A stretch of DNA of 64,000 bases from Limimaricola soesokkakensis. Its GTDB lineage: Bacteria; Pseudomonadota; Alphaproteobacteria; Rhodobacterales; Rhodobacteraceae. This document shows positions 181-60,958 of this stretch, piece by piece. The notes under the pieces were generated by a model. That model was given only the letters and a program-made list of their open reading frames with translations, searched no databases and was not told where the DNA came from. Where the stretch lies: NCBI RefSeq assembly GCF_900172345.1, contig NZ_FWFY01000005.1, positions 1 to 64,000 of the forward strand, given 5' to 3'. Positions within the stretch are counted from its first letter, which is position 1; each line of letters starts with the position of its first letter. The position numbers and the translations under genes are program-made.

Positions 181-192
181 GCCCATGCATGC

Positions 193-3288: not shown

Positions 3289-3292
3289 CCCC

Positions 3293-4526: not shown

Positions 4527-4614
4527 ACTGTCGACGGCGGGATGAAAACCGGCCACGCGGCGAGGTGCTAGGTAACGATAGCCGCTCGGCTACTCTCGCG
4601 CCTATGTCCCGGCG

Positions 4615-4758: not shown

Positions 4759-4770
4759 GACGCTTCGATT

Positions 4771-5082
4771 ATGCCCACGTTGATCCACACCGGCTGCGAC
4801 AGCGAGAAGGAGGCGCGCAAGATCGCGCGGGCGCTCCTCGAACGCCGCCTCGCCGCCGCCGTTCATATCCGCAAGATCGACACGCTCTACCGCTGGGAGG
4901 GCGAGATCCACGACCATCTCGAATGGCGGCTGGATATCAAGACGGTCGAGGCGCGCTGGAACGAGGTGGTCGCGGCCATCACCGAGCTGCACAGCTACGA
5001 AGAGCCCGCAATCTTCTCGACCCGCATCCACCGCATCACGACCGGCGCGCTCGACTGGCTCGAAGAGAACTGCGCCGAGTGA
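4771..5082 (+). CDS. cutA: CutA1-family divalent cation tolerance protein
   Basis: The 103-residue length fits CutA1, a small cytoplasmic trimer with a ferredoxin-like fold linked genetically to copper and other divalent-ion tolerance. Family features visible are the S-E-K-E-A-R-K-I-A-R-A-L-L-E-R-R-L-A-A helix, the Y-R-W-E-G-E-I loop, and the H-S-Y-E-E-P-A motif followed by a basic strand. The protein starts directly at the beta strand that begins the fold, so ATG 4771 is the natural start. No partner gene for metal transport is nearby. Its molecular function remains debated in the literature. Confidence 0.88.
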   Translation: MPTLIHTGCDSEKEARKIARALLERRLAAAVHIRKIDTLYRWEGEIHDHLEWRLDIKTVEARWNEVVAAITELHSYEEPAIFSTRIHRITTGALDWLEENCAE

Positions 5083-5451
5083 TCGCGGGCGACGGCCCCC
5101 ATCCATGTCTCCCCTGACAAGTTCGCACCGAACAGGAGCGAGTGGGGCACGGTCAACGTCTCGTAGTTGATATCAGCCGAGGGCGGTGCGCTCGTCGAGA
5201 TGCAGGCAGGGGTAATGAGCGAGGACGGATCACTTCCGATCCGGATGGCACCTGACCGAAGGGAGCACCGCTTCGGTGTAGGTTCCTCTCTCGAACGGTC
5301 AGGAGAGTGGATTCATTGTCGACCCCAGCGCTGCAGCAAAGAAGAATAGCCCGGGCCTAGTGAAGGGCAGGAAGGGCAACTTGGGCTGTCGAGGCCCTCG
5401 CCAATTTCTTCGATCGCGAACTGCGGTCCCACCAGAAAGGAGGCTTCGACG
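5083..5451. other. Intergenic stretch without a supported gene
   Basis: About 370 bases lie between cutA and the DUF3085 gene. I see no convincing coding frame. A hairpin with arms ACCGAAG (5255-5261) and CTTCGGT (5271-5277) and a 9-nt loop is present. The DUF3085 ribosome site (AGGAGG) lies at the right end. Confidence 0.5.
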
Positions 5452-6018
5452 ATGAGGGCGACGTTCGACGCGGACCATCTGCTCGAACTCCTGGCCCTTT
5501 CGGAAACCGCGAGGACACGCCGACCGACCTATGCTCAACTTTTTGATCCCACCCTCTGGCGCGCCGACATGGAGGCCACGGGGCGCGCTGCAGCGGTAGA
5601 GGGGCTTCGCACGGATGAATGTCCAAACCTGACCATCGACGACCTCGACTGCACCAGAATTCCTCCGGGGCTGATGCTCGCTGGTGACGAAGGTATCTAT
5701 TTCATGACGAACGCGGTCTCCGCGGAAATGGAGGCGCTCCGCGCCTATGGCCGTCATGTCGCCTACGCTCGCGAGGCCGATCCCACCTGGATGCCATGCA
5801 AGGAGGTGCGGCATGCCAAGCATGCCATCTTCGGCCAAGAGGACGGGGTCGAGTTCCTCGGAGCGGAGGAACTGCGAAGGGGGCTCGTGCCGGGTTCGCT
5901 CTACGAGGTCCACATTACTGCCAAGGCAATCGTCCTGCCGAGCTCGAAGGGGGCCTATAAGAAAGCGTTTTGCCCTGACCGGCATCTCCAAACAGCGATA
6001 CGCGATACCCGCCGCTAA
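5452..6018 (+). CDS. DUF3085 domain protein
   Basis: The 188-residue soluble protein is preceded by AGGAGG at good spacing. The pattern G-D-E-G-I-Y-F-M-T-N-A, then H-V-A-Y-A-R, then D-P-T-W, then a D-G-V-E-F-L motif matches what I know of DUF3085, a family common on alphaproteobacterial plasmids and islands and of unknown function. This supports the view that the first 9 kb is accessory DNA. The basic C-terminal tail (after about residue 165) is outside the domain. The family assignment is from motif memory, not a search. Confidence 0.65.
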   Translation: MRATFDADHLLELLALSETARTRRPTYAQLFDPTLWRADMEATGRAAAVEGLRTDECPNLTIDDLDCTRIPPGLMLAGDEGIYFMTNAVSAEMEALRAYGRHVAYAREADPTWMPCKEVRHAKHAIFGQEDGVEFLGAEELRRGLVPGSLYEVHITAKAIVLPSSKGAYKKAFCPDRHLQTAIRDTRR

Positions 6019-6290
6019 CCTCCCAACACGAGAAAGTTTCGATTGGGAGAAGCTGGAGGGGCGTGCCGCAGCGACTTCGAACTTCAGGCGTTCGATCCCG
6101 CCAGCTGCAGGGCGTGGATGCAATTATCAAGAGGCAGCGGCAAATGCCGCCCGAAGAGATGAGTCTATCGAGGTGGGCGGAGAATTTCAGCGGGGGCAGG
6201 ACTCTCTCGCCACATGCCGTTCCCTCGAAGGGCAGGGCCAGCCGAATATTGCTCGGCTAGCCCCCATGAACAGCTCAGAGGAAATCCAGA

Positions 6291-7109
6291 TTACTGGGCA
6301 TTCGCCTCGCCGTCAGCGTCGACGTCAGCGTCGGCATCGCCGTTAGCATCGGCATCGACATTGGTATCGGTATCGGCAGACTCGTCTTCCTGACCTTCAG
6401 TATCCAGACCCGTGTCTTGCTCCAGGTCAGTTTCTTGAGTCTCTTCGTCGCCAGCGCCTTCTTCGAGAAGCTCGCCTTCCTCTTCGTTGCCTTCTCCTTC
6501 GGAATCCTCGCCTTCCTCGATGAAGCCTTCGGTTTCCGTATCATTCGGATCGATTGCGGGTTCGTCCTCCTCGACCGCGTCCCGCTCCTCATCGTCCTCC
6601 GAGGCCGAACGGGACTCGGGATCGGCCACATCGGGCGAGGGAATGGGTTCGATGACCACTACACCGTCAGCCACGCCCTCGGGCACGGCGAACATCACCA
6701 TCACCGGCGTCCCGTCGCGCATCACCGGGGCATCCACATCGGTCATCTCCGGTCCGAAATCGAAGGTGCCGTTGTCGTTGCTTTCGACATGCAACATGGC
6801 CATCAACTGAGTTCCGGCAGGCAGCGCCTCCGGAATGGTCACCGCCACATCGGCATTTTCGCCAGCAGTTACCGAGGCATGCCCCAGTGCTTCACCGGCC
6901 GTGCCATCGGCAGCGACGGCATGCACGACGATGTAGCCGTCCTGCAGCGCGGTGATGAGCGGGAAGGTCACGGTGGTCTGTCCGTCCACCATCGACATCT
7001 GCATCATCGCGTCATCGGTGACCACGATCATCGTTTCGTCATCCTGCGCCAGGGCTCCCCCGGCCATAAGGGCGGAGAGGGCGGCAGCGCTTGCAAAGGC
7101 CTTGATCAT
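6291..7109 (-). CDS. Secreted DUF7282-type protein with a long acidic repetitive tail
   Basis: The 272-residue product has a clear Sec signal peptide (residues 1-22, cut after ALA). A folded beta-rich domain at about 25-155 contains the I-V-V-H-A-x-A-D-G-x-x-G-x-x-L-G pattern of DUF7282-like domains. A tail of more than 100 residues is almost entirely D, E, G, A, S and T, ending in DA/DV repeats. GGAGG lies 5 bases before ATG 7109, deciding against two upstream ATGs. It is probably periplasmic or extracellular. Such a tail could bind divalent cations or act as an entropic spacer; that is inference. Confidence 0.75.
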   Translation of the reverse strand: MIKAFASAAALSALMAGGALAQDDETMIVVTDDAMMQMSMVDGQTTVTFPLITALQDGYIVVHAVAADGTAGEALGHASVTAGENADVAVTIPEALPAGTQLMAMLHVESNDNGTFDFGPEMTDVDAPVMRDGTPVMVMFAVPEGVADGVVVIEPIPSPDVADPESRSASEDDEERDAVEEDEPAIDPNDTETEGFIEEGEDSEGEGNEEEGELLEEGAGDEETQETDLEQDTGLDTEGQEDESADTDTNVDADANGDADADVDADGEANAQ

Positions 7110-45181: not shown

Positions 45182-46084
45182 TCAGTGTTCGCGCGGGTCG
45201 AGCGCGTCGCGCAGCCCGTCGCCCAGCAGGTTGAAGCCCAGCACCACGAGGAAGATCGCGATGCCCGGCCACATCGCCATCCAGGGCGCCTGGCTCAGGA
45301 AGTTCTTGGCGGTGTTGAGCATCGACCCCCAGCTCGGCGCCGGCGGCTGCTGGCCGAGGCCGAGGAACGACAGCGACGCCTCGGCGATGATCGCGGTGGC
45401 GATGGTCAGCGTCGCCTGCACCAGCACCGGGGGCAGGATGTTGGGAAAGATGTAGCGGCTCAGGATCTTGGGCGTCGACAGGCCGATCGCATGCGCGCCC
45501 TCGACGAAATCCTCGGCCTTGACCGAGATCACCTGGCCGCGCGTCAGCCGCACGAAGACCGGCGTGGCCGAGAGGCCGATGGCGATCATCGCGTTGGTGA
45601 GCGAGGGCCCGAGGAACGCCGCGAGCGCGATGGCGAGGATCAGGAAGGGGACAGCGAGCAGCGCCTCGGTGCAGCGCGAGATGATGCCATCCGTCCAGCC
45701 GCCGAAATACCCCGCGAGGATGCCCATCGGCACCCCGAAGGCGACCGCGATGCCGACCGAAATCACGCCCGCCAGCAGCGAGGCCTGCGCCCCCCAGACG
45801 AGGCGCGAGAGCACGTCGCGGCCGATCTCGTCGGTGCCGAGCCAATGCGCCGCCGACGGCGCCTGCCGCACCGCGCCCCAATCGGTGGCGGTCGGGTCGG
45901 GGATCGGCAGGATCGGCGCGAAGACCGCCATGAGGACGAACAGCCCCACCAGCAGGCCGCCCAGCATCGCCGACCGGTGGCTGCGGAACTTCTTCCAGAC
46001 GCGGTTCTCGGGGCGCTTTTGCAGCACCGGGTCGGTCATGAGCTGCGGCTTGAGCGTGGCGGGGGTCGCGGGCTGGGCCATCAT
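45182..46084 (-). CDS. Peptide-type ABC transporter permease (DppC-like, second operon)
   Basis: The 300-residue permease has an OppC N-terminal segment (F-R-S-H-R-S-A-M-L-G), six helices, coupling motif H-A-I-G-L-S-T-P-K-I-L near 200, and the ending F-N-L-L-G-D-G-L-R-D-A-L-D-P. The first of two consecutive ATGs overlaps the DppB stop (ATGA). It forms the membrane channel with the DppB-like partner. Confidence 0.92.
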   Translation of the reverse strand: MMAQPATPATLKPQLMTDPVLQKRPENRVWKKFRSHRSAMLGGLLVGLFVLMAVFAPILPIPDPTATDWGAVRQAPSAAHWLGTDEIGRDVLSRLVWGAQASLLAGVISVGIAVAFGVPMGILAGYFGGWTDGIISRCTEALLAVPFLILAIALAAFLGPSLTNAMIAIGLSATPVFVRLTRGQVISVKAEDFVEGAHAIGLSTPKILSRYIFPNILPPVLVQATLTIATAIIAEASLSFLGLGQQPPAPSWGSMLNTAKNFLSQAPWMAMWPGIAIFLVVLGFNLLGDGLRDALDPREH

Positions 46085-47025
46085 TGCTTCCTCAGGCGCG
46101 GATTCAGGACGAAATAGGCGGCGTCGGCGAGGATGTTCATGACGATGAAGCCCATCGCCGTGACCAGCACGATGCCCTGCACCACCGCGTAGTCCCGGTT
46201 GAACACGGCATCGACCACCAGCTTGCCGAAGCCCGGAATGGTGAAGATCTGCTCGGTCAGCACCGCGCCCGCGATCAGCTCGCCGAACAAGAGCGCGGTG
46301 AGGGTGACGATCGGGGTGAGCGCGTTGCGAAAGGCGTGGCGCAGGATCACCCGGCGCTCGGCCAGCCCCTTGGCCCGCGCGGTGCGCACGTAGTCGGATT
46401 TCAGCACGCCGAGCATGGCGGAGCGGGTATGGCGCATCAGCGTCGCGGCGAGTGCGGTACCCAGAACGAAGGCGGGCATCAGCATGGTCTTGAGCGACAG
46501 CCACAGATCCTCGCCGGGCGGCACGTAGCCCGAGGCGGGCAGCGCCTGCCATTTCACCGCGACCAAGAGGATCAGCATGATGCCGAGCCAGAAGTTCGGG
46601 ATCGACAGGCCCGACAGCGCCACGACGTTGGCGACGTAGTCGGTGATCGTGCCTTTCTTCACCGCCGAGAGGATGCCCGCGGGGATGCCGATCACCAGAG
46701 CGAAGACCAGCGCCATCAGCGCCAGCTGGATCGTCACCGGGAGCTTCTGCGCGATCAGCTCGGTCACCGGCTGGTTGGTCCTGAGCGAGATGCCGAGATT
46801 GCCGGTGACCACGCCCTTGATCCAGGTCGCGTACTGCACCCAGACCGGGTCGTTCATGCGGTATTTCTCGCGCAGGAAGGCGATGGTCTCGGGGTCGCGT
46901 TCCTCGCCCGCCATGGCGAGGATCGGATCGCCCGGCAGCAGCTTCTGCAGGCCGAAGACGAAGATCGAGATCAGGATGACGGTCGGGATCGCGATGACGA
47001 TCCGGCGCGCGACGAAGCTGAGCAT
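46081..47025 (-). CDS. Peptide-type ABC transporter permease (DppB-like, second operon)
   Basis: The 314-residue permease opens M-L-S-F-V-A-R-R-I, then L-L-P-G-D-P-I-L-A-M-A-G-E, and carries the coupling motif Y-V-R-T-A-R-A-K-G-L near 222. ATG 47025 is preferred over an in-frame GTG 9 bases upstream because DppB proteins begin with this Arg-Arg helix. A strong hairpin separates it from the binding-protein gene. Confidence 0.92.
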   Translation of the reverse strand: MLSFVARRIVIAIPTVILISIFVFGLQKLLPGDPILAMAGEERDPETIAFLREKYRMNDPVWVQYATWIKGVVTGNLGISLRTNQPVTELIAQKLPVTIQLALMALVFALVIGIPAGILSAVKKGTITDYVANVVALSGLSIPNFWLGIMLILLVAVKWQALPASGYVPPGEDLWLSLKTMLMPAFVLGTALAATLMRHTRSAMLGVLKSDYVRTARAKGLAERRVILRHAFRNALTPIVTLTALLFGELIAGAVLTEQIFTIPGFGKLVVDAVFNRDYAVVQGIVLVTAMGFIVMNILADAAYFVLNPRLRKQ

Positions 47026-47047
47026 CAGGGGCACCCGGTGGGTTCGG

Positions 47048-47077
47048 GGCCGCGCCGCCCGATCAGGCGGCGCGGCC
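47048..47077 (-). promoter_or_regulatory. Intercistronic hairpin after the second binding-protein gene
   Basis: GGCCGCGCCGCC (47048-47059) and GGCGGCGCGGCC (47066-47077) form a perfect 12-bp stem with a 6-nt loop. It begins 8 bases after the SBP stop codon and precedes the DppB start. It likely tunes SBP mRNA above permease mRNA. Confidence 0.65.
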
Positions 47078-47084
47078 GGTCAGG

Positions 47085-48596
47085 TCACTCAGACTTGGTC
47101 ACGCCGGCGAGGCGGAACATGCCGTCGGGATAGGGGACGAAGCCCTCGATGGCATCGTCCAGCGCCCAGATCCAGGTCTCGTGGTAGAGATAGATGATCG
47201 GCTTGTCCTCGTTGAGGATCTTGGCCGCGGCATCGTAGCTCTCCTTGCGCGCCGCCATGTCGGTCGTCACCCGCGCCTCGTCGAGCAGGCGGTCGACCTC
47301 CTCGTTCGAATACTTGGCGTCGTTGAGCCCCGCATCGGTGGTCATGAACTGGTGGATGTTGCCATCGGGATCGACCCGGCCCGACCAGCCGACCTGGCTC
47401 GCGGTGAAGTCGCCCGCGGTCTGGTCCGACAGCATGGTGGCGAATTCCTTGGAGGTGATCGAAATGTTGATCCCCGCCTCGGCGGCCATCGACTGGATCA
47501 CCTGCATGAGCTGCAGGTTGACCGGCGTGTTGGGCGCCTGCACCTCGAGATCGATGCCGTTCTCGTAGCCCGCCTCGGCTAGGAGCGCCTTGGCGGCCTC
47601 GACGTCGCGCTCGGGCACCGGCAGGCTGGTGTCGTACCAGGGCGAGTTCGGCGGGAAGGCCTGGTTGCCCGCGGGCGCGGTGCCCTCGAACACCACCTGG
47701 TTGATGGCGTTGCGGTCGATCGCCAGCTCCAGCGCCTTGCGCAGCCGCGCGTCATTGCCCCACGGGTTGTCGCCGCGCTCGCCATTGCCGATGTTGAAGG
47801 TGATGCCCTGATAGCCCAGCGACACGGCCTCCTCGACCTTTAGCGAGGGATCGTTGCGGACCTGCGCCACGTCGGTGGCGGCAAGCCGGTTGATCGCGTC
47901 CACGTCGCCCGACTGCAGGTTGGCCAGACGCACGGTGCTGTCGGGGATCGGCAGGTAGGTCACGGTGTCGAAGTGGAACTCGCCGGCGTTCCAGTACTCG
48001 GCGAATTTCGACAGCACGATCTTGTCCTGCGCCACCCGCTCCTCGAACTTGTAGGGGCCCGAGCAGACCGGGGCGAGACCGAAATCGGCGCCCGCCTCGG
48101 CGGCGGCGGTGGGCGAGACCATCATGCCGGCGCGGTCGGCCAGCTGCGCCAGCAGCGTCGCGTCGGGCTGGGCGAGATCGATGCGGATCTGGTGCGGGCC
48201 CAGCACCTCGGTGCCGGTGATCGAGGCGACCTCGGACTTGCGGCGGCTCTCCTCCATGGTCTGCGACCGCTCGATATTGGCGGCCACGGCCTCGGCGTCG
48301 AAGGGGGTGCCATCATGGAAGGTCACGCCCTCGCGCAGCGTCATGGTGAGCGCGGTGCCCTCGTCGTTCCAGCTCCACTCGGTCGCGAGCTGCGGCACGA
48401 TTTCCAGATCGGGCGTGATGTCGACGAGCTTGTCGCACAGCGCGGTATAGACGATGCGGCCCACGAAGGTGCGCGACTGGTCGGGGTCGAGGATGTCCGG
48501 ATCGCTTTCGAGCGCGAAACGGAAATCGGCCGCCTGCGCCGAGAGCGCGGTGGCGCTCAGCAGCGCCGCGAGCAGCGTGGTCTTGCGGAAGGTCAT
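47085..48596 (-). CDS. ABC transporter solute-binding protein, family 5 (second operon)
   Basis: The 503-residue protein has a Sec signal peptide (cut near residue 22 after AQA) and an SBP_bac_5 domain with L-A-T-E-W-S-W, L-R-E-G-V-T-F-H-D-G-T-P-F-D-A-E-A-V, and a C-terminal Y-L-Y-H-E-T-W. It is periplasmic. It has the same length and architecture as the SBP at 15788-17299 but little identity by eye, so the two operons probably take up different compounds. It lies 21 bases after the ATPase gene. Confidence 0.92.
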   Translation of the reverse strand: MTFRKTTLLAALLSATALSAQAADFRFALESDPDILDPDQSRTFVGRIVYTALCDKLVDITPDLEIVPQLATEWSWNDEGTALTMTLREGVTFHDGTPFDAEAVAANIERSQTMEESRRKSEVASITGTEVLGPHQIRIDLAQPDATLLAQLADRAGMMVSPTAAAEAGADFGLAPVCSGPYKFEERVAQDKIVLSKFAEYWNAGEFHFDTVTYLPIPDSTVRLANLQSGDVDAINRLAATDVAQVRNDPSLKVEEAVSLGYQGITFNIGNGERGDNPWGNDARLRKALELAIDRNAINQVVFEGTAPAGNQAFPPNSPWYDTSLPVPERDVEAAKALLAEAGYENGIDLEVQAPNTPVNLQLMQVIQSMAAEAGINISITSKEFATMLSDQTAGDFTASQVGWSGRVDPDGNIHQFMTTDAGLNDAKYSNEEVDRLLDEARVTTDMAARKESYDAAAKILNEDKPIIYLYHETWIWALDDAIEGFVPYPDGMFRLAGVTKSE

Positions 48597-48617
48597 GCGT
48601 TTACCTCTGTCTGTCGG

Positions 48618-49729
<1,112 letters not shown>

Positions 49730-49733
<4 letters not shown>

Positions 49734-50716
49734 GCGCTGCGCTCCAGCGTCTGTTCGAGGGGGGCGAAGTGGCAGGCGACGCGGTGGCCGGGATCCTGCT
49801 CCGCGAGATCGGGCCGCGCCGCGCAGACCGGTGCCGCGAAGGGACAACGCGAGGAAAAGCGGCAACCCTCCGGCATCTGGCCGATCGCCGGGACCACGCC
49901 GGGCACGGTCGAGAGCCTGCGGCGCGGACCGGTCAGGGACGGGACCGAGGCCATCAGCCCGATGGTATAGGGGTGCTGCGGGTTCTCGAAGATCGACCGG
50001 GCCGAGCCGTATTCGACCACCTGCCCCGCATACATGACGGCGACGTTGGTCGCGATCTCGGCCACGACGCCGAGGTCGTGGGTGATCATGATCGTCCCCA
50101 TGCCGGTCTCGGCCTGCAACTCCGCGATCAGCTCGAGGATCTGCGCCTGCACGGTGACGTCGAGCGCGGTGGTCGGCTCGTCCGCGATCAGCAGTTCGGG
50201 ATCGTTGGCCAGCGCCATGGCGATCATCACCCGCTGCCGCATGCCGCCCGAAAGCTGGTGCGGATAGGCGTCGAACCGCTGCTCCGGCGCCGGGATGCCG
50301 ACCTTGCCGAGCATCTCCAGCGCCCGTGCCCGGGCCGCCGCGTGGCCGCAGTTCCGATGCCGCTCGACCGCTTCGGCGATCTGGTCGCCGATCCGGAAGG
50401 CCGGGTTGAGCGAGGTCATCGGCTCCTGGAAGATCATCGCCATGCGGTCGCCGCGCATCTTCGCGATGCGGTCGTGGTCGCCCGGCGCGAAGGTCTCGCC
50501 GTCGAAGCGGATCCGCCCGGCGCCGAATTGCACCGAGTCCTGCGGCAGCAGCCCCATCAGCGCCAGCGCGGTCACGCTCTTGCCGCAACCGGACTCGCCA
50601 ACGATGCAGAGCGTTTCGTTGCGGCCAAGCCGGAACGACACGTCCTGCACCACGTCCTGCTCCTGCCCGCGAAAGCGGAAGCGCAGGTTCTCGACCTCCA
50701 AGAGCGGCTGGTTCAT
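49730..50716 (-). CDS. Peptide-type ABC transporter ATPase (DppD/OppD-like, second operon)
   Basis: This 328-residue ATPase is the first gene of the second import operon, with GGAGG 6 bases before ATG 50716. It has Walker A GESGCGKS, signature L-S-G-G-M-R-Q-R-V, Walker [13 protein letters not shown] and a C-terminal C-R-F-S-S-R-C-P-F. Here the ATPases come before the SBP and permeases, the reverse of the first operon's order, showing independent origin of the two operons. Confidence 0.92.
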
Positions 50717-51371
50717 GGCGCGCCTCCCGCGTTCCGGTGACCTCGGGGTCACCGCGGCTTCAACCTATTTCAAAACCAATGCCGGATTGGTGGCAGACCT
50801 GTCGCGGCCTGGCAACCCACTTTCGGAAAAGTTTCGAAAGGCATGTGCCGCGGCGGAACCGAGGCGCCGACGAGACCGCTCAAAGCTATGTTAAGATTAG
50901 GATTTTAGAGACAAGGCAGTGTCGCTCACGACGTCAACACCTCCACCGCCGGTACGGAAACTGGGCACTCATGTCCGCTGTTTCGCCAGCTACGATCCGT
51001 CCGATGCGATCGGCACGGCGCATCCTGGTATCGCCGGGTGATCCACGAAGCGACCAATCGCGGCCGCGGCATCCACGCTTCGACGCCGATGACACCGGTT
51101 CATGCTTCGTCGAAGCAACCGTCGAAACCCCGCCCCCCGCCTCGCGAGATCGGGCAGCCAAGGCTCGGCGTTCATAAACGGACCGGAATTGAATTCGACT
51201 TGCGCCGCGATATGCGCATCAATTTCCAAATAGGCCGATTGCAAATCGCATCAAACTCAATTCCCGATTTTCTTTTTATTTTTTCCCAAAGGGTGACGCC
51301 CTTCAGTCGCGGCGCAATACTCGACCCGGAGGCGCGGTTATTGCGCGCCAGCGTCATACGGAGGGACAGAG
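50717..51371. other. Divergent regulatory region between second import operon and amine oxidase cluster
   Basis: About 655 bases have no supported gene. The right part (51190-51290) is AT-rich with a run of T-rich sequence, fitting a promoter for the amine oxidase genes; the left edge carries the operon's ribosome site. The divergent layout lets one regulator, perhaps the GntR encoded at the far end of the operon, act on both sides. I did not find a clean palindrome. Confidence 0.45.
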
Positions 51372-52961
51372 ATGAGCATGTCACGTCGCAGCTTGCTGCA
51401 GATGGTCGGCCTCGCCGCCGGGACCACCGCCATGTACCAGGCGATGACCACGCTCGGTTTCGCGCAGGAATCGAGCTATGCGGGCCCGATCCGGCTCGAG
51501 GGCGATCCGCAGGGGGCCAAGGTGCTGATCCTCGGCGCCGGCCTCGCCGGCATGACCGCCGCGCTCGAGATGCGCGCCGCGGGCTACGAGGTCGAGATCA
51601 TCGAATACCGCGAGAAGGCCGGCGGCCGCTGCTGGACCCTGCGCGGCGGCGACAGCTATACCGAGCTGGGCGGCGCCACGCAGGAGGTGGGCTTCGCCGA
51701 GGGCAATTACCTCAACCCCGGCCCGTGGCGCATCCCGCATCACCACCACGCGGTGCTCGACTACTGCAAGCGGCTCGGCGTGAAGCTCGAACCCTTCATC
51801 CAGAAGAACCACAACGCCTACCTGCATCGCGCGGAGGCCTTCGACGGCACGCCGCAGCGCTTCCGCGAGATCGCAACCGATTACCGCGGCCAGATCTCCG
51901 AGCTTCTCGCCAAGGTGACCAACCAAGGCGCGCTCGACGAGGAGGTGACCGAGGAGGACAAGCAGAAGCTGCTCGACAGCCTCGTCGAATACGGGATGCT
52001 CGACGAGAATTACCGCTACGTGAAATCGGACCACACCTCGGAATATCGCGGCTATCAGACATGGCCCGGCGGCGGTTTGAACGCCGCGCCCGAGCCCTCC
52101 GAGGCGATCTCGCTCGACCAGATCCTGCAATCGGAACTCTGGACCTGGCTGGTCGAGGCCGAGACCACGCATCACCAATCGACGATGTTCCAGCCGGTCG
52201 GCGGCATGGACATGATCGCCCAAGGCTTCGAGCGCGAGGTGGGCGACCTGATCACCTACAACGCCAAGGTCGTCTCGATGATCCAGGACGAGAATGGCGT
52301 GACGGTGGAGTACGAGGATCTCGCGGATGGCGGCGGGATGGTGACCCGAACCGGCGATTGCTGCGTCTGCACCATCCCCTTCTCGATCCTCGGGCAGATC
52401 GAGCACAATCTCTCGGGCGACAAGACCGCGGTCATCGATTCCATGTATTACGCGGGATCGGTGAAATTCGGTCTCGAATTCAAGCGCCGCTTCTGGGAGC
52501 AGGACGAGCATATCTATGGCGGCATCAGCTATACCGACCTGCCGATCGCGCTGATCTCCTACCCCTCGCACGACTATCTGAGCGACGGGCCCGGGGTGCT
52601 TCTGGGCGGCTATGCATGGGGCGCGACCGCCTACCAGTTCAACGCCATGCAGCCGGAGGAGCGGACCAAATGGGCGGTCGAATATGGCAGCCGGATCCAT
52701 CCCCAATACACCGAGGAGTTCGACAACGGCGTCTCGGTGACATGGCACAAGGTGCCATGGGTGCTCGGCTGCTACGGCATCTGGAAGGACCGCGAGGCCG
52801 ATTACGAGATCGCCGCGACGCGCGACAACCGCATCGTTCTGGCCGGCGAGCACATCTCCTACCTGCCCGGCTGGCAGGAGGGCGCGATCCTGTCCTCGCT
52901 CGACGCGATCCAGAGGCTGCATGACCACGTGACCAATTCCAACGCGGGAGAGACGCAATGA
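51372..52961 (+). CDS. Tat-exported flavin amine oxidase/dehydrogenase
   Basis: The 529-residue FAD enzyme of the monoamine/L-amino-acid oxidase family has a Tat signal with S-R-R-S-L-L-Q at residues 4-10 and probable cleavage after F-A near 31. The FAD Rossmann motif is G-A-G-L-A-G (55-60), then A-G-G-R-C-W-T and G-D-S-Y-T-E-L-G-G; the C-terminal flavin motif is L-A-G-E-H-I-S-Y-L-P-G-W-Q-E-G-A. GGAGG precedes the ATG. It oxidises an amine or amino acid in the periplasm to an imine. The adjacent cytochrome gene suggests electrons go to cytochrome c rather than O2. Confidence 0.9.
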   Translation: MSMSRRSLLQMVGLAAGTTAMYQAMTTLGFAQESSYAGPIRLEGDPQGAKVLILGAGLAGMTAALEMRAAGYEVEIIEYREKAGGRCWTLRGGDSYTELGGATQEVGFAEGNYLNPGPWRIPHHHHAVLDYCKRLGVKLEPFIQKNHNAYLHRAEAFDGTPQRFREIATDYRGQISELLAKVTNQGALDEEVTEEDKQKLLDSLVEYGMLDENYRYVKSDHTSEYRGYQTWPGGGLNAAPEPSEAISLDQILQSELWTWLVEAETTHHQSTMFQPVGGMDMIAQGFEREVGDLITYNAKVVSMIQDENGVTVEYEDLADGGGMVTRTGDCCVCTIPFSILGQIEHNLSGDKTAVIDSMYYAGSVKFGLEFKRRFWEQDEHIYGGISYTDLPIALISYPSHDYLSDGPGVLLGGYAWGATAYQFNAMQPEERTKWAVEYGSRIHPQYTEEFDNGVSVTWHKVPWVLGCYGIWKDREADYEIAATRDNRIVLAGEHISYLPGWQEGAILSSLDAIQRLHDHVTNSNAGETQ

Positions 52962-53464
52962 AACCGCTTCCCCTTACGCTGATCCTCTCGGGTCTCGCGC
53001 TCGGCGCGTCACTGCCGGTCCTCTCGCAGACCCAAGACCAGCCCGATGCCGGGGCCGAGACCGGCGAGATCGCGGAATCCGGCCAACGCGAGGCATTCCG
53101 CACATTCGAGCCCTCGGACGAGGAGCAGGCCTATTTCGCCGAGACCGCGAAGCTGACGCAGCAAGGCGGCGAGGCGATCTATCGCGCCGTCTGCTCGGGC
53201 TGCCACATGCCCGAGGGCGAAGGCGCGGTGGGCGCGGGCATGTATCCGGCCTTGGCCGATAACGAGATGCTCGAATTCCCCGAATACCCGATCTACGTCA
53301 TCGTCCACGGGCAAAAGGCGATGCCGCCGCTCGGCGGCATTCTCGACGACGAGCAGGTCGCCGAGGTCACCAACTACATCCGTTCGAATTTCGGCAATGA
53401 TTACGTCGAGGGCGAGGAGGGCATCGCGGCCACGCCCGAGGATGTCGCGGGGGTACGGCCATGA
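52958..53464 (+). CDS. Secreted mono-heme c-type cytochrome
   Basis: The 168-residue protein has a Sec signal (about 1-23), an acidic linker, then one class I cytochrome c domain with heme motif C79-S-G-C82-H83 and axial Met122 in A-M-P-P-L-G-G. Its ATG overlaps the amine oxidase stop (ATGA), so the two are made in parallel. It is the natural electron acceptor for the flavoenzyme. A comparable partnership is documented for the nicotine dehydrogenase NicA2 and its cytochrome CycN. Confidence 0.92.
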   Translation: MKPLPLTLILSGLALGASLPVLSQTQDQPDAGAETGEIAESGQREAFRTFEPSDEEQAYFAETAKLTQQGGEAIYRAVCSGCHMPEGEGAVGAGMYPALADNEMLEFPEYPIYVIVHGQKAMPPLGGILDDEQVAEVTNYIRSNFGNDYVEGEEGIAATPEDVAGVRP

Positions 53465-53955
53465 CCGCGCGCCGCATCGCCGCCGCCTCGGGGCTGGCGC
53501 TGATCTGCGTCGCACCCGTCGCGGCGCAGGAACTGACCCGGCACCCGCTGCCCGACAGCGACTTTCCGATCTCGATGGCGGTCGAACTGCCCGCCGATGC
53601 GCAGCTGGTCTATCTCAGCGGCACCGTGCCGAGCGTCACCGATCCCGAGGCCGAACAGGGCAGCCGCGCCTCCTATGGCGACACCGAGGCGCAAACCGTC
53701 TCGGTCCTGCAGACCATCGAAGCCAATCTCGCACGGCTCGACCTCGCCATGTCGGACGTGGTGAAGATGACCGTGTTCCTGACCGCGACCGAGGATGGCG
53801 GCGCGATGGATTTCGCGGGCTTCATGGCGGGCTACACGCAGTTCTTCGGCACCGAGGATCAGCCCAATCTTCCGACCCGCTCGGTGGTCGAGGTGGCGGG
53901 GCTGGCGAACCCGGCCTGGCTGGTGGAGATCGAGGTGGTGGCGGTCCGGCCCTGA
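53461..53955 (+). CDS. Exported RidA (YjgF/UK114)-family imine deaminase
   Basis: The 164-residue RidA-fold protein carries a signal peptide (about 1-22, ending V-A-A-Q), unusual because RidA proteins are normally cytosolic. The key arginine is present (R140 in L-P-T-R-S-V-V-E-V), as is the acidic residue in V-E-I-E-V-V-A-V. RidA hydrolyses enamines/imines formed by amine oxidation. Its start overlaps the cytochrome stop (ATGA). It would release the carbonyl compound and ammonia from the amine oxidase product in the same compartment. Confidence 0.9.
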   Translation: MTARRIAAASGLALICVAPVAAQELTRHPLPDSDFPISMAVELPADAQLVYLSGTVPSVTDPEAEQGSRASYGDTEAQTVSVLQTIEANLARLDLAMSDVVKMTVFLTATEDGGAMDFAGFMAGYTQFFGTEDQPNLPTRSVVEVAGLANPAWLVEIEVVAVRP

Positions 53956-53997
53956 GCCGCCCGTCCAATCGGCCCGGGATTTGCCGGGCGCCACATG

Positions 53998-54025
53998 CGA
54001 AGGCCGCCCGAAGGGGCGGCCTTCG
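53998..54025. terminator. Bidirectional terminator hairpin
   Basis: CGAAGGCCGCCC (53998-54009) and GGGCGGCCTTCG (54014-54025) form a perfect 12-bp stem with a GAAG loop. It lies between the convergent RidA and CsbD genes and can serve both. Confidence 0.75.
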
Positions 54026-54037
54026 TTCCGGGCCGGA

Positions 54038-54220
54038 TCAGCCCTTGTCCTTGAGCGCACCCTTGGCCTCGCCCTTGATGTCCTGGCCGTGACCCTTGAG
54101 CTTCTGGGCCTTGCCTTCGTTTTGCAGGTCCTTGTCGCCGGTCGCGTCGCCGATGGCATCCTTCGCGGCGCCGGCGGCCTTGTTCATCGCGCCCTTGGCC
54201 TTGTCTTCATGCTCGCTCAT
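54038..54220 (-). CDS. CsbD-family stress protein
   Basis: The 60-residue highly charged helical protein has the CsbD pattern K-A-K-G-A-M-N-K-A-A-G-A-A-K-D-A-I-G-D-A-T-G-D. CsbD proteins accumulate under general stress, with no known activity. AGGAG lies 4 bases before ATG 54220; upstream in-frame sequence to 54316 lacks the family's character. It is monocistronic. Confidence 0.88.
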   Translation of the reverse strand: MSEHEDKAKGAMNKAAGAAKDAIGDATGDKDLQNEGKAQKLKGHGQDIKGEAKGALKDKG

Positions 54221-54574
54221 GTCGCGCTCCTGTAGATCTCGGATCGCAGCCCGTGACGCCAGTCCGGCATCTGGCTGCTCGCGCGACAAACAATCAGGGC
54301 GGGTATCCGTTTCCATAGGCAGCGCAATCGTGATCGCGGCGCGATGAGGCAGTTCGGCGGCTCTTCCATAATGGGCGAGGGCTGGCGGGTCCGGTGACAG
54401 CCCGCGTCACGCTGTCCACGGATGCTGCTTCGAACCTCATCCGGAATGCTTCGGCTCGCCTGCTCACCCCAACCCTCCCGAAGAGATTTTCGACGTAGGC
54501 CTTTGCAGACGCGCCTCCGGCGTTCGAGAGGCCCAAGCCGGAATACCGCCAGCAATCACGAAACTTATGCACTC
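54221..54574. other. Gap between CsbD and ArsR genes
   Basis: About 350 bases show no supported gene. It carries the promoters of the divergent csbD-like and arsR-like genes. Confidence 0.4.
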
Positions 54575-55649: not shown

Positions 55650-56642
55650 TCATTGCCAGTTGGCAACCATGTCGCAGGCGATGTCGAAGGCCTGCCGCAT
55701 CGCGTCGACCCGCGCCCTGCCCTGCCCCGCGATGTCGAAGGCGGTGCCATGCGCCGGCGTCGTCACCGGGTATGGCAGCCCGCCCTGCACCGTGACGCCG
55801 CGCTCGAAGCCCAGGAGCTTGAGCGCGATCTGGCCCTGATCGTGATACATCGTCACCACCGCGTCGATCTCGCCATCCCGCAGCTTCAGGAACACCGTGT
55901 CCGAGGGCCAGGGCCCGTCCACCGGCATCTGCCGCTTCTGCATCGCCTCGATCGCCGGGCGCAGCACGTCGATCTCCTCGCGGCCGAAATTGCCGCCATC
56001 CCCCGCATGCGGGTTCAGCGCCGCGACCGAGATCCGCGGCCGCGCGATCCCTGAGCGCCGCAGCGTCCGGTCGATCAGATCGACCGCCTCCTCCAGCCGC
56101 TCGGGCGTGATCGCATCGGCCACGTCGCGCAGCGCGATATGGCTGGTGGTGCGCGAGGTCCACATGCCGTCGAGCACGTTGAGCTCGGACAAATACTCCG
56201 TCACCCCGAGCCGCTCGCCCATGTGGTGCAGCTCGTCGGCATGGGCGAGACCCGCCATGTGCATCGCCGCCTTGTTGAAGGGCGCGAAGACGAAGCCGTC
56301 GATATGCCCGGCCTGCAAGAGTTCCAGCGCCCGGTCCATGGTCGCAAGCGCCGAGCGTCCCGAGGCCTCGGTCTCGACCGCCACCTCGATCTCCGAGGCG
56401 GCGATGGTCTCGGTCTCGTGCCATGCGATGCCCTCGGGGGGCGCGCGCCAATCCTCAGGATCAACCGGCACGAGGGCATACTCCGCGCCCGCCTGACGCA
56501 TGCCCTGCTCGAACACGCAGCGATCGCCGATCAGCAGGATCTCGGCGGCCTCGCGGACACCCTCCGCCGCCATCAGCTTCGCAATCAGCTCGGGGCCGAT
56601 GCCGCTGGGATCGCCGGGGATGATGCCGATACGGGGTGTCAT
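55650..56642 (-). CDS. PdxA-family dehydrogenase (4-hydroxythreonine-4-phosphate dehydrogenase-like)
   Basis: The 330-residue NAD-dependent enzyme has G-D-P-S-G-I-G-P-E-L at residues 9-18, and metal-binding His in T-S-H-I-A-L-R-D-V, N-P-H-A-G-D-G-G and P-A-H-G-T-A-F-D-I-A-G, as in PdxA. The catabolic setting argues for a PdxA2-type role on a phosphorylated sugar acid rather than vitamin B6 synthesis. The DUF1537 kinase that normally accompanies PdxA2 is not encoded here. It is the last gene of the operon, ATGA-overlapping the GntR stop. Confidence 0.9.
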   Translation of the reverse strand: MTPRIGIIPGDPSGIGPELIAKLMAAEGVREAAEILLIGDRCVFEQGMRQAGAEYALVPVDPEDWRAPPEGIAWHETETIAASEIEVAVETEASGRSALATMDRALELLQAGHIDGFVFAPFNKAAMHMAGLAHADELHHMGERLGVTEYLSELNVLDGMWTSRTTSHIALRDVADAITPERLEEAVDLIDRTLRRSGIARPRISVAALNPHAGDGGNFGREEIDVLRPAIEAMQKRQMPVDGPWPSDTVFLKLRDGEIDAVVTMYHDQGQIALKLLGFERGVTVQGGLPYPVTTPAHGTAFDIAGQGRARVDAMRQAFDIACDMVANWQ

Positions 56643-57355
56643 GTCTTGCGGCCCTCCTCGGCCTGTTCGGATCGGGTCTTGGCGATGTTCTCCACCGCGG
56701 TCTCGAGATGCTGGCGCAGCGCCGCCGCCGTGGCGACCGCGTCGCGCGCCTTGAGGGCGAGGACCACCTCCTCGTGCTGGCGCAGCGTGCGCGGCCGGTC
56801 CGGCTTGCGCTGCGAGGAGATGAAGCGCGCGCGCCAGAGCCGCGCGTTGTACTGCCGCTGGGTCTGCGCCAGCGGCCGGTTGCGGCTGGCGGTCACGATG
56901 GCCTCGTGAAAGGCCATGTCGCGGCGAAAGAAGGTCAGCGGCTCGTCGGTCTCGGAGCCCTCGACCATCTCCTGGCAGATCCGCTCGATCTCGGCGATCT
57001 CCTCGTCGGTGGCGTTGCGGCAGGCCTGCTCGCCGGCCAGCGCCTCGATCGCGCCGAGCACCGAGAGGTTCTGCTCCAGCGTCTCCAGATCCGGATCGGC
57101 CACGAAGGGCCGGCGGGTCGGCGAATAGACCACCAGCTCCTCGGCCTCGAGGATGCGCAGCGCCTCGCGCAGCGGCGTGCGGCTGATCCCCATCGCCTCC
57201 GCGAGGTCGCGCTCGCGGATCGGGGCGCCGGGGGCCAGCTTGGCCAGCAGGATCAGCTCGCGCAGCCGTTCGGCCACCTCGTCGCACAGCGTCTTGCGCC
57301 CCGAGATCGGCGCCATTTCGGCGAGGCTTTTCGACAGGTTGGACTCGTCGGTCAT
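56639..57355 (-). CDS. GntR-family regulator, FadR/FCD type
   Basis: The 238-residue protein has a winged HTH at about 20-85 (I-R-E-R-D-L-A-E-A-M-G-I-S-R-T-P-L-R-E-A-L-R) and an FCD domain at about 95-220 with D-M-A-F-H and late Q-H-E-E-V and R-Q-H-L. It is embedded in the sugar-acid operon and probably represses it through the palindrome upstream of the binding-protein gene. Metal and a sugar acid are the usual effectors in this family. Confidence 0.92.
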   Translation of the reverse strand: MTDESNLSKSLAEMAPISGRKTLCDEVAERLRELILLAKLAPGAPIRERDLAEAMGISRTPLREALRILEAEELVVYSPTRRPFVADPDLETLEQNLSVLGAIEALAGEQACRNATDEEIAEIERICQEMVEGSETDEPLTFFRRDMAFHEAIVTASRNRPLAQTQRQYNARLWRARFISSQRKPDRPRTLRQHEEVVLALKARDAVATAAALRQHLETAVENIAKTRSEQAEEGRKT

Positions 57356-57369
57356 GGTCGTGTTTCCTT

Positions 57370-58296
57370 TCAGCGCCCCCAGCGCAGCACGATGGGGTCG
57401 AGGGGCCGCAGCAGCCCGATCAGCTCGGCGCGCGTCTCGGGCGGCAGCGGCGGCACCGGGTGGCGGCAGAAGTCGGAGCGGATCACGCCGCCCTCGACCA
57501 TCGCCGCCTTGGCGGCGCGAAAGCCGCATTGCTGGTTCTCGTGGTTGATCGCGGGCAGGATCCTCGTATAGCCCGCGACCGCCCGCTCGCGATCGCCCGC
57601 GTGATGCGCCGTCACCACCTCGCGGATCAGCTCCGGGATCATCGCCGAACACATGGTGCCGGTCGCGCCCGCGTCGAGATCGGCGAGCATGGTGATCCCC
57701 TCCTCGCCGTCGAGCGGGCTGACGATGGCCTCGCCGCCCTCGGCGATCAGCGCCCGCAGCTTGGCCGCGGCACCGGCGCATTCGATCTTGAAATGCTGCA
57801 CCATCTCGATCTCGCGCGCCATCCGCACCAGAAGCGGTACCGGCAGCTCGACCCCCGAGAGCGGCGCGTCCTGCACCATGATCGGGATGCCGACCTCGCC
57901 CACCTGGGCGAACTGCTCGTAGCATTGCTCGGCCGTGCCCTTCAGCAGCGCCCCGTGATAGGGCGGCATCATCATCACCGCGACCGCGCCCAGATCGCGC
58001 GCCAGCCGGGCCCGCGCCACCACGATCGGCGTCGCGTAATGCGAGATGGTGACGATCACCGGCAGCCGGCCCGCGAGATGCGCGAGGCAGTGCCGGGTCA
58101 GCGTCTCGCGCTCTGCGTCCGAGATCAGGAACTGCTCGGAAAAGTTGGCGAGGATACAGACGCCGTCGGCGCCCTGCTCCATGGTGCAGTCGAGCACCCG
58201 TGTCATGCCCGGCAGGTCGAGCGTGCCATCCTCGTTGAAGGGGGTCGGCGCGACCGGCCATGCGCCGGTCAGGGTCTGGGGCCTCATGGCGGTCAT
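57370..58296 (-). CDS. DapA-family aldolase/dehydratase with altered active site
   Basis: The 308-residue class I aldolase barrel has Schiff-base Lys170 (H-F-K-I-E) and the strand M-M-M-P-P-Y. The Tyr of the usual L-Y-N-x-P motif is replaced: the sequence reads M-V-Q-D-A-P, giving Gln142 and Asp143. So it is not a true dihydrodipicolinate synthase. In context it should cleave or dehydrate a 2-keto-3-deoxy sugar acid made by the enolase-family enzyme. Its start overlaps that gene's stop (ATGA at 58296). Confidence 0.88.
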
Positions 58297-59468
58297 TCCT
58301 CGATCCGGAAGTTGTCGAGATGCCGGTCGCTGATCGAGATACCCAGTCCCGGCGTTTCGTCGTCGAGCTGCAGGAAGCCGCCCTGTGCCTCCGGATCGCC
58401 CTCGAAGATGTAGTAGAACAGCTCGTTGCCGACCTCGACGTCGAAGACCGGGAAGTATTCGGCGATGGGGCAGTTCGCATTGGCCATGGTCAGGTGGTAG
58501 TTGTGCATCTGCCCGGCATGCGGGATCACCGGCACCTGGAACGCCTCGGCGATGGCGTTGATCTTCTGCGCGGCCGTGATGCCGCCGACCCGGTTGGTGT
58601 CGTATTGCAGCACGCTGACCGCACCGCGGCGCAGCAGGTCGGCGCAGCCCATCACCGAGAACTCGTGCTCGCCGCCCGAGATCGGCACGATGTTCATGGC
58701 ATTCAGCTCGGCATAGCCCGCCACGTCGTCGGCGATCACCGGCTCCTCGAGCCAGCGCGGCTCGTATTTGGCGAGCTTGGGCAGCATCCGCTTGGCGTAG
58801 TCGAGGTTCCAGCCCATGTAGCATTCGAGCATGAGATCGTTGTCGTAGCCGATCACCTCGCGCAGCGCCTCGACCCGCTTGAGGTTCTCGCGCATGCCCG
58901 GCATGCCGTCCTTGGGGCCGTAGCCGAAGCGCGACTTGTAGGCGGTATAGCCGTTCGCCATGGCCTCTTCGGCCTCTGCCTGCATCTCGCGAATGTCGCG
59001 GGCATAGAGCTTGGAGTAGTAGACCGGGATCTTCTCCTTGGTGCGGCCGCCCAGGAGCTTGAAGACCGGCTTGCCGACGAGCTTGCCCATCGCGTCCCAG
59101 ATCGCGATGTCGATCGCCGAGATCGCGGTCATGCCGATGCCCTTGCGGCCCCAGGCATGGGTGCGGCGATACATCTTCTCCCAGATATAGGCGTAGTCGA
59201 ACGGGTCCTCGCCGATCACCAGCGGCGCGTACCAGTCGTCGATCGCCTGCTTGACCACGCTGGGCGCCAGCGCGGCGTTGCCGATGCCGATTGTGCCGTC
59301 GTCGCATTCCACCTCGCAGGTCAGCCACTGGTGGAACCGGAAGGAGGACATCGCGTCGCCCTTCTCGTAGAGCGCGTCCGAGGCGTTGGTGCAGAAATTG
59401 CCCTGCGGCGGAACGGTGGGGCCGGTCCAGTGCCAGACGCGGGTGCGGATCGAGGTGATCTTGGTCAC
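58293..59468 (-). CDS. Enolase-superfamily sugar-acid dehydratase (rhamnonate-dehydratase-like)
   Basis: The 391-residue protein has the mandelate racemase/muconate lactonizing fold. Metal ligands appear as E215 (L-M-L-E-C-Y-M-G), E241 (W-L-E-E-P) and E267 (S-G-G-E-H-E-F); the base is H317 (V-I-P-H-A-G). The [15 protein letters not shown] and [11 protein letters not shown] blocks point to the L-rhamnonate dehydratase group, where the first ligand is usually Asp. It would turn a sugar acid into its 2-keto-3-deoxy form. GTG start with GGAG upstream; GTGA overlap with TctA. Confidence 0.9.
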
Positions 59469-60958
59469 GACGCGATCTCCTTTCGTGTGATTTTGCGAAT
59501 GAGGTGGGTGGTCGGCGCCCCGAAGAGCGCGAGCAGGGTCAGCGCGAAGAAGGTCAGCGCGATCGGCCGGGTGAAGAGCATCCACCATTCGCCCCGGAAC
59601 ATCGCGACCGACTGGCCGAGCCGCTGCTCGACCATGGCGCCCAGCACCAGCCCGATGGCCAGCGAGACCACCGAGAAGCCGTGGCGGATCATCAGGTGGC
59701 CGATCACCCCGAAGGCCAGCGCGATGATCACGTCGACCTGCGATTGCCGGATCGCATAGGCGCCGACGATCGAGAACAGGAACACCAGCGGCCACAGGAT
59801 CCGCACCGGGATGGTGGTGATCCGCGCGAAGATCGGCGCGCCGCCCAGCCCCACGGCGATGAACAGCAGGTTGGCCACGAGCAGCGCCGCGAAGATCACG
59901 CCCAGGAACTCGCCCTGCTCGGCGAAGAGCATCGGCCCGGGCTGCAAGCCTTGGGTCAGGAGCCCCGCGAGGATGATCGCCGCGGTCGGGCTGCCAGGGA
60001 TGCCGAGCGCCAGCGTCGGCACCAGCGAGCCGCCGATGGCCGAGTTGTTGGCCGCCTCCGAGGCGGCGATGCCCTCGATCTCGCCATTGCCGAAATTGTC
60101 GCGGTTCGGCGACCAGCGCCGCGCCTCGTTGTAGGAGATCATCGAAGCGATGGTCGCGCCCTCGGCCGGCAGCACGCCGATGAAAGTGCCGATGCCGGTG
60201 GAGCGCAGCACCGTGGTGCGGATGCGCCGAATGTCGGCCCAGCTGGGCAGCTTGACCGCGCGCATGGCGATGAGGCGCCGCTCGGTGCCGAGCTGGGTCG
60301 ACTGGCGCAGCAGTTCGGCGATGCCGAAGATGCCGATCATCACCGGCACGAAGCCGATGCCGTCATAGAGCGCGTGGGTGCCGAAGGTATAGCGCTCCAC
60401 GCCCGTGAGCAGGTCGACGCCGATGGTGGCGAGCAGCACGCCGAAGGCGCCCGCGATCAGGTTCTTCACCGCCGATCCGCCGCCGATCGTGGCCAGCATC
60501 GACAGGCCGAACAGCGTCAGCGCGAAATATTCCGGCGGCCCGAAATCATAGGCCAGCCTCGCCATCAGCGGCGCCGCCACGAACAGGAACACGATCGAGA
60601 CCAGCCCGCCGAAGGTCGAGGCGATGGTCGCGACGCCGAGCGCGCGCCCGGCCTCGCCGCGCAGCGCCAGGGGGTAGCCGTCGAGGCAGGTGGTGGCCGA
60701 GGCCGAGGTGCCCGGCGTGTTGATCAGGATCGCGGTGATCGATCCCGCGAAGGTGGCCGATCCGTAGATCGTCGCCAGCACCACAGTGGCCGAGATCGGG
60801 TCCATGGTCAGGGTGAAGGGCAGCATCAGCGCCGCGCCGGTGGTGGCGTTGAGCCCCGGCAAAACCCCGATCACCGTGCCCGCCAGCGTCGTGGCGACGA
60901 TGAGCAGCAAAAGCTTCGGGTCGCCGAGGGCCAGAAGCCCCGAGAGGATATCGCCCAT
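59465..60958 (-). CDS. Tripartite tricarboxylate transporter large membrane subunit (TctA-like)
   Basis: The 497-residue protein has about 11-12 helices. It carries the family motif [18 protein letters not shown] near residue 31, its symmetric partner in the second half ([11 protein letters not shown]), and I-L-I-N-T-P-G-T. It moves the solute captured by TctC, driven by ion gradient. It starts 7 bases after TctB. Confidence 0.93.

Follow-up and report, generated by a model that had tools for sequence, protein, structure and literature searches.

A candidate periplasmic L-amino acid:cytochrome c dehydrogenase operon with an exported Rid protein in Limimaricola soesokkakensis

Three genes at positions 51372–53955 of a 64,000-nucleotide stretch of Limimaricola soesokkakensis DNA (contig NZ_FWFY01000005.1; the whole stretch is hereafter called the window) encode a flavoenzyme, a monohaem cytochrome c, and a Rid protein, each predicted to be exported, and raise the questions of what is oxidized outside the cytoplasm, where the electrons go, and what becomes of the imine. 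We consider it probable that the operon specifies a periplasmic L-amino acid:cytochrome c dehydrogenase together with its own periplasmic imine deaminase. In the proposed mechanism, the flavin adenine dinucleotide (FAD) enzyme would be folded in the cytoplasm and then exported by twin-arginine translocation (Tat), and would bind an L-amino acid via its carboxylate with Arg120 and Tyr414. A hydride would be transferred to FAD and the imino acid released, FADH2 being re-oxidized by the co-encoded monohaem cytochrome c. The cytochrome would hand its electrons to a terminal cytochrome c oxidase, with little or no H2O2 formed as a result, and the exported Rid3-type protein would hydrolyse the imino acid in the periplasm, giving a keto acid and ammonia.

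Operon architecture and its described counterpart

The genes for the flavoenzyme (lao homologue; 51372–52961; 529 residues; Pfam Amino_oxidase, 195 bits), the cytochrome c (cccA homologue; 52958–53464; 168 residues; Cytochrome_CBB3, 51.9 bits), and the Rid3-like protein (ridA homologue; 53461–53955; 164 residues; Ribonuc_L-PSP, 71.4 bits) lie on the + strand, with all three Pfam scores exceeding the cut-off, and are joined by ATGA start/stop overlaps at 52958–52961 and 53461–53464. The export assignments combine motifs, hydropathy, and conservation, the Sec signals being judged partly by eye. An earlier reading made from the sequence alone (the sequence-only reading) had described the three genes, both overlaps, a Tat FAD oxidase, a CxxCH cytochrome, and a signal-bearing Rid with its key Arg, all of which is confirmed by the open reading frames, Pfam matches, motifs, and hydropathy.

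The closest named relatives of the flavoenzyme in a genome scan are Limimaricola oxidases of 97% and 90% identity. Among the best 80 of at least 582 relatives in that scan, the order oxidase–cytochrome–Rid occurs in 51, oxidase–cytochrome in 28, and the oxidase alone in one (L092). The cytochrome gene is second in 79 of the 80 loci and the Rid gene third in 51, which is much too frequent to be due to chance; the search of related genomes that the sequence-only reading had proposed as a check thus leaves its three-gene arrangement standing. A linked Rid gene is lacking in 29 of the 80, two of which (L082 and L087) are on contigs ending within 800 bases, too early to judge. The layout with two ATGA overlaps is not general, being found only in L014, L015, and L046 with the script-chosen starts.

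We also surveyed evenly drawn samples, which overlap each other and may overlap the best 80. In that of the phylum, the flavoenzyme is found at E ≤ 1e-120 in 16 of 398 Pseudomonadota genomes (~4%), and the 15 genomes other than that of the window hold 17 copies, every one with an adjacent cytochrome gene on the same strand (17/17), the gene order being reversed in L156. A Rid gene is also linked in 11 of these copies, so placed that 11 of the 15 genomes have at least one such copy. Within the family of the window, the flavoenzyme is present at E ≤ 1e-60 in 8 of 149 genomes, the window's included; no cytochrome was seen by eye in the downstream reading frames displayed for two of the more distant homologues, L012 (39% identical) and L013 (34%). 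The lineage is present in Deinococcus too. As a side observation, one genome of the phylum sample carries two divergent oxidase–cytochrome copies on opposite strands within 5 kb (L151 and L156, on contig C5 of G969), one with Rid and one without.

An operon of this kind was described in 2016: lao-cccA-ridA of Gluconacetobacter diazotrophicus PAL5 (GDI2456–2454), encoding a Tat L-amino acid oxidase (LAAO), a cytochrome c, and RidA, for which cooperation of the three products was already proposed (PMC5053998; statements on papers cited by PMC number refer to the accessible parts of their texts). Two Tn5 lao mutants formed no indole-3-acetic acid (IAA) by high-performance liquid chromatography and left tryptophan largely unmetabolized, and cytochrome c maturation mutants reportedly make only 5% of wild-type IAA (Lee 2004, cited in PMC5053998); the cluster was noted to be conserved in Caulobacter and Xanthomonas (PMC5053998). 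To identify the PAL5 locus, the published lao primer was matched against 397 genomes from the family to which the Belnapia locus L046 belongs, giving five matches with at most one mismatch, two of them exact, and one locus, L103, is matched exactly by all six published primers. The PAL5 genes are the same as those of the window, in the same order and on the same strand, with a Tat oxidase, the identities being 51.9% over 518 residues for the oxidase, 47.9% over 117 for the cytochrome, and 49.3% over 146 for Rid, although the two organisms differ in genus and family. By our reading of its sequence, the PAL5 Rid protein also starts with an export-like signal, whereas the accessible text of PMC5053998 names that of the oxidase only. 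In the oxidase tree, PAL5 lao falls inside the same 86-row set on a long branch, in no smaller well-supported group.

Judged from sequence, the window operon is therefore a further copy of the operon kind described in 2016. The claim of the sequence-only reading that an exported RidA in such a unit was undescribed fails, since both the unit with its proposed cooperation and a Chlamydomonas periplasmic complex are reported in PMC5053998; the observation itself is sound and the mechanism plausible. Among the open-licence literature matches listed, mostly titles and abstract openings, only PMC5053998 and PMC10805672 treat the three-gene cluster, which is absent from the accessible texts of a catalogue of proteins released by Asaia (PMC12502724) and a review of amino acid oxidases (PMC4699246).

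Substrate class and electron acceptor of the flavoenzyme

The N-terminus of the flavoenzyme, MSMSRRSLLQM, holds a twin-arginine motif (SRRSLL, 51381–51398, + strand), whose first Arg is kept in 80 and second in all 81 aligned sequences (80 relatives and the window); a stricter pattern, RRx followed by two hydrophobic residues, is found in 75 of the 80 relatives. The top PDB match is Rhodococcus opacus LAAO (E 3.5e-87; next match, 2.1e-42), which also leads the fold comparison made with the predicted structure of the window enzyme (mean predicted local distance difference test score, 79; Z 44, root-mean-square deviation 2.3 over 468 residues, 34% identity), followed by snake LAAOs (Z 35–33) and a bacterial monoamine oxidase (Z 33). 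Arg120 (codon 51729–51731, + strand) and Tyr414 align with the Arg and Tyr of the LAAO carboxylate site and, together with Lys365 and Trp501, are invariant in the 81 sequences. In snake LAAO the aligned residues are presumably Arg90 and Tyr372, Arg120 corresponding to Arg90. In the snake enzyme, Arg90 and Tyr372 bind the substrate carboxylate (PMC6149928). The flavoenzyme is thus, by alignment and predicted fold, LAAO-like and not a generic amine enzyme, and the LAAO fold match with the carboxylate-site residues kept in 81/81 makes an L-amino acid its most likely substrate. The amine oxidation proposed by the sequence-only reading is accordingly to be narrowed to the L-amino-acid type. Against NCBIfam, the listed matches (best 25 of 35) fall mostly on the N-terminal FAD-binding part and are all far below the cut-off. 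None of the best 60 PDB matches is named NicA2, in a list with incomplete entry codes and no direct comparison with NicA2, and its absence from the 50-entry fold list carries no weight.

That the substrate is instead an amine, a peptide, or an opine seems to us distinctly improbable. The Pfam family Amino_oxidase is broad, many plasmid records label the relatives as flavin monoamine oxidase family protein, and a peptide-type ATP-binding cassette (ABC) transporter is encoded divergently upstream in the window, all of which would suit such a substrate; yet the invariance of Arg120 and Tyr414 and the lead of R. opacus LAAO by ~9 Z units in the fold list argue for a free L-amino acid, the G. diazotrophicus homologue is required for tryptophan use (PMC5053998), and the transporter binding protein was not found beside the unit in L. 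pyoseonensis (L014).

As for the electron acceptor, all 80 aligned cytochromes, that of the window included, carry CxxCH (in the window CSGCH, its one such motif, residues 79–83; 53192–53206, + strand) and a probable axial Met (residue 122). Stopped-flow work on NicA2-related enzymes showed that cytochrome c dehydrogenases are well predicted by a Tat flavin amine oxidase (FAO) gene lying beside that of a Sec cytochrome, the enzymes of clades 2 and 3 reacting at 10^4–10^6 M−1 s−1 with cytochrome versus 24–6600 with O2 (PMC12224317), and the window operon has both genetic features, the Tat signal being assigned by motif. NicA2, CycN, Pnao, and other flavoprotein amine dehydrogenases that use cytochrome c resemble the window system in the Tat FAO, the adjacent Sec monohaem cytochrome c, and the proposed electron route, but the NicA2-related enzymes act on nicotine, pseudooxynicotine, and other amines, unlike the LAAO-like enzyme of the window (PMC12224317); a search of the accessible text of that paper gave no match to the term Rid, and no member of the window lineage was found in its accessible tables. 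In favour of this route, the window's own genome contains a TatC gene, four COX1 genes, and three matches to Cytochrom_C_asm.

Alternatively, the enzyme could be a genuine L-amino acid oxidase of the periplasm, reducing O2 to H2O2, with the cytochrome acting as its peroxidase partner or as a side acceptor; this we regard as unlikely. An oxidase would suit the name L-amino acid oxidase borne by the nearest solved relatives, as well as the invariance of Lys365, which presumably aligns with the family active-site Lys linked to O2 reactivity. R. opacus LAAO (2jae, 2jb1) shares the fold and the aligned carboxylate-site residues with the window enzyme and is named an oxidase, unlike the dehydrogenase proposed here. 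PMC5053998 likewise terms the G. diazotrophicus enzyme an oxidase. Since nearly all dehydrogenases in PMC12224317 also keep the active-site Lys, the retention of Lys365 is not decisive for O2 use. An O2-reducing enzyme is opposed by the adjacent cytochrome gene in 79 of the best 80 relatives and in all 17 phylum-sample copies; by the finding that the Tat FAOs tested mostly preferred cytochrome to O2 when one was encoded alongside and were mostly fast with O2 when none was, the B. anthina enzyme using both (PMC12224317); and by the low IAA reported for the maturation mutants of G. diazotrophicus (PMC5053998). From the anatomy, the related enzymes (PMC12224317), and the reported mutants, we infer that electrons pass from the flavoenzyme to the cytochrome, and this delivery together with hydrolysis of the imine is the best-supported interpretation of the operon.

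Several observations weigh against a cytochrome-linked dehydrogenase with its own deaminase. The B. anthina enzyme, although it has both genetic features, reacted at partly comparable rates with O2 and cytochrome, clade 1 was sluggish toward both, and the sample consists of NicA2-related enzymes (PMC12224317); in the literature seen, no purified-enzyme comparison of O2 with cytochrome c was found for the window lineage. At least 8 of the 79 relatives' cytochromes have a weak signal (<1.5, with script-chosen starts). In the lao mutant tested by reverse-transcription quantitative polymerase chain reaction, transcripts of all three genes were lowered (PMC5053998), and because those of cccA and ridA fell too, the IAA mutant does not separate the roles of the genes. 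Furthermore, Rid is unlinked in 29 of the 80 loci, and three of four genomes of the family with such loci have weak Rid matches only, as detailed in the following section.

Neighbouring genes in some relatives support the proposed electron path beyond the flavoenzyme. On plasmid pDSHI02 of Dinoroseobacter shibae, coxB and ctaD lie upstream of the unit on the same strand; in this locus (L140, 1–6036), the cytochrome c oxidase subunits, an assembly protein, the flavoenzyme, and the cytochrome c form one same-strand run, a candidate for a complete amino-acid-to-O2 chain. A ctaD gene also lies near the unit on the opposite strand in two of the best 80 (L049 and L061). In Deinococcus radiodurans, a cytochrome gene is directly upstream instead, and five Psychrobacter loci have an extra cytochrome gene upstream, with three CxxCH motifs in L081.

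The exported Rid protein, a repeatedly gained or lost partner

The Rid protein of the window carries the hydrophobic stretch MTARRIAAASGLALICVAPVAAQE in its N-terminal part (11-residue mean hydropathy, 2.6), and a Sec signal peptide is predicted from hydropathy at 53461–53526 (+ strand). With the best 11-residue mean in the first 35 residues as a common measure for all sets, and starts set by script at the ATG nearest the preceding stop, the 51 third-gene Rid proteins all give 1.65–2.75, versus at most 1.46, whichever candidate start is taken, in 13 controls; these controls, Rid proteins of other kinds, are few, 3 of the 13 coming from the window's own genome, and for a 14th control locus (L005) the Rid model gave no match good enough to use (E 4.6). 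As an aside, the Rid proteins of the Alteromonas group (L066, L068, L070, L075, L076, L078, and L080) have a lipobox-like LLSAVFATTGC or a close variant, and those of L110 and L111 have lipobox-like N-termini too, with LAAALTAC among the variants seen in this set; the exported Rid of these loci appears to be a lipoprotein.

Arg140 (codon 53878–53880, + strand), equated by motif with the catalytic Arg of RidA, is kept in all 52 third-gene Rid proteins, the window's included, and so is Ile37, which may correspond to the RidA active-site Tyr. In Rid3 proteins, an Ile replaces that Tyr (PMC4433059), which Ile37 would fit. The nearest solved relatives are PSPTO3006 (130.9 bits) and PFL1385 (100.9 bits; next match, 42.1 bits), both classed as Rid3 and able in vitro to remove the imines that LAAO forms from Leu, Gln, Phe, Met, and His (PMC5619798). 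These imine deaminases (PFL_1385 and PSPTO_3006; PDB 9bkc, 9bka) were studied as recombinant proteins, and the words signal and periplasm are absent from the accessible text of PMC5619798. The N-terminus of PFL1385 also aligns with the signal of the window Rid. Rid genes, sometimes of Rid3, are known to cluster with FAD amine oxidases (PMC4433059). From the predicted signals we infer that Rid acts in the periplasm. The generality of the export signal and catalytic Arg among third-gene proteins, as read from their sequences, is new here.

The association was also seen starting from Rid. This Rid type occurs at E ≤ 1e-15 in 10 of 289 genomes of the class, all ten proteins having hydrophobic export-like N-termini by eye, that of L114 more like a membrane anchor. 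Eight of the nine outside the window lie near such a flavoenzyme, the exception being L129 (9.5 kb read). The eight loci comprise the full order (two), Rid–oxidase–cytochrome (one), Rid divergent from oxidase and cytochrome (one), oxidase–Rid with no cytochrome match (one), and a TonB-dependent receptor between oxidase and Rid (three: L130, L131, and L133); in these last three no cytochrome was seen in a retrieved region that stops at one oxidase end.

Some Rid proteins have chaperone activity, and Rid is dispensable in many lineages, so the exported protein might have a role other than hydrolysing the imine of the oxidase, for example as a structural oxidase subunit or a periplasmic holdase, which we think rather improbable. 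For the LAAO complex of Chlamydomonas, a RidA-like subunit without catalytic function is reported (cited in PMC5053998). Against such a role, the catalytic Arg, unneeded by a scaffold, is kept in 52/52, and hydrolysis of imines formed by LAAO has been seen in vitro for Rid3 relatives (PMC5619798); the proximity of eight of the nine class-sample Rid proteins to the flavoenzyme fits a shared substrate, and also a shared complex. The Chlamydomonas system pairs periplasmic LAO1 with LAO2/RIDA, with the bacterial operon cited (PMC10805672), and a periplasmic LAAO/RidA complex was described there earlier (Vallon 1993, Merchant 2007, cited in PMC5053998). Like the window, it combines an extracytoplasmic LAAO with a RidA-like protein, but it is eukaryotic and H2O2-forming, with no cytochrome partner named in the accessible texts (PMC10805672, PMC5053998).

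Imine deamination by the exported Rid, as we propose it, would not be obligatory. On the oxidase tree, built by a quick method with Shimodaira–Hasegawa-like approximate likelihood ratio support only, the distribution of Rid requires 17 changes, of which well-supported branches force at least 11. We examined four members of the family without a linked Rid: G047 has an unlinked export-like relative of 57% identity, whereas G065, G035, and G037 have weak matches at best (E 6.7e-7 or worse), the G037 contig stopping ~400 bases beyond the oxidase. The unlinked loci, the weak matches in three of four genomes, and the tree changes accordingly led us to reject an obligatory Rid, and the same unlinked loci and weak matches suggest that imine hydrolysis can proceed without Rid. 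Because of the tree changes and the related genomes without a linked Rid, the sequences point to oxidase and cytochrome as the core, with Rid an accessory that is repeatedly gained or lost. Of the self-contained three-gene pathway of the sequence-only reading, the conserved exported unit holds up but self-containment does not as regards Rid, 28 of the 29 loci without a linked Rid having oxidase and cytochrome.

Possible role and neighbouring genes

As of 2015, the in vivo substrates of Rid1–Rid3 were stated to be wholly unknown (PMC4433059). An exported Rid3-like protein beside one amino-acid-oxidizing enzyme offers a candidate in vivo substrate for Rid3; if the proposal is true, Rid3 gains such a substrate and bacterial Rid proteins have an extracytoplasmic role, acting on an imine formed alongside, while amino acids feed the respiratory chain without import and keto acids, e.g. 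indole-3-pyruvate, stay outside the cytoplasm. It seems to us evenly balanced whether the LAAO-like lineage as a whole, mostly named oxidases, is made up of periplasmic L-amino acid:cytochrome c dehydrogenases that are apparently distinct in descent from the NicA2 type, with exported Rid3-like proteins as dedicated partners outside the cytoplasm. Use of cytochrome c by the lineage would mean that many proteins entered in databases as oxidases are respiratory dehydrogenases; it would also make the oxidation of amino acids in the periplasm, including the auxin route of G. diazotrophicus, energy-conserving and free of H2O2 formation.

Besides the repeated gain or loss of Rid, the cytochrome oxidase, TonB-receptor, and peptidase genes near some relatives are new here. 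The TonB-dependent receptors between exported Rid and flavoenzyme in the three class-sample loci are joined by homologues in the retrieved flanks of L056, L060, and L085 (of the best 80) and of L106. An M20 peptidase homologue lies beside seven Bradyrhizobium-type loci (L040, L043, L044, L045, L048, L051, and L063); of the six examined by eye, five (L040, L043, L048, L051, and L063) show an N-terminal signal, L045 not being resolved. Envelope scavenging of amino acids or peptides fits these neighbours.

In the window, a hairpin 3′ of the Rid gene (53997–54026, + strand; −35.4 kcal/mol, z −5.5, with a 46-nt stretch folded) probably marks the operon end, although a terminator scan requiring a T-run did not report it; a scan for sigma-70-type promoters found none and is uninformative. 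Upstream, the − strand at 45182–50752 encodes the divergent transporter, of peptide/dipeptide type (SBP_bac_5, a DppB-like permease, and an Opp/Dpp-type ATPase). We rejected its membership of the unit, since the gene for its binding protein, although retained beside the unit in L015, has no match within 6 kb upstream in the congener L014. Next downstream of the operon is a gene for a CsbD-like stress protein (54038–54316, − strand). A further cluster on the − strand (55650–60958), of which 59468–60958 gave no family match, encodes PdxA-like and sugar-acid-dehydratase-like enzymes, with GntR-, DHDPS-, and TctA-like open reading frames by eye, and probably serves sugar-acid or related catabolism.

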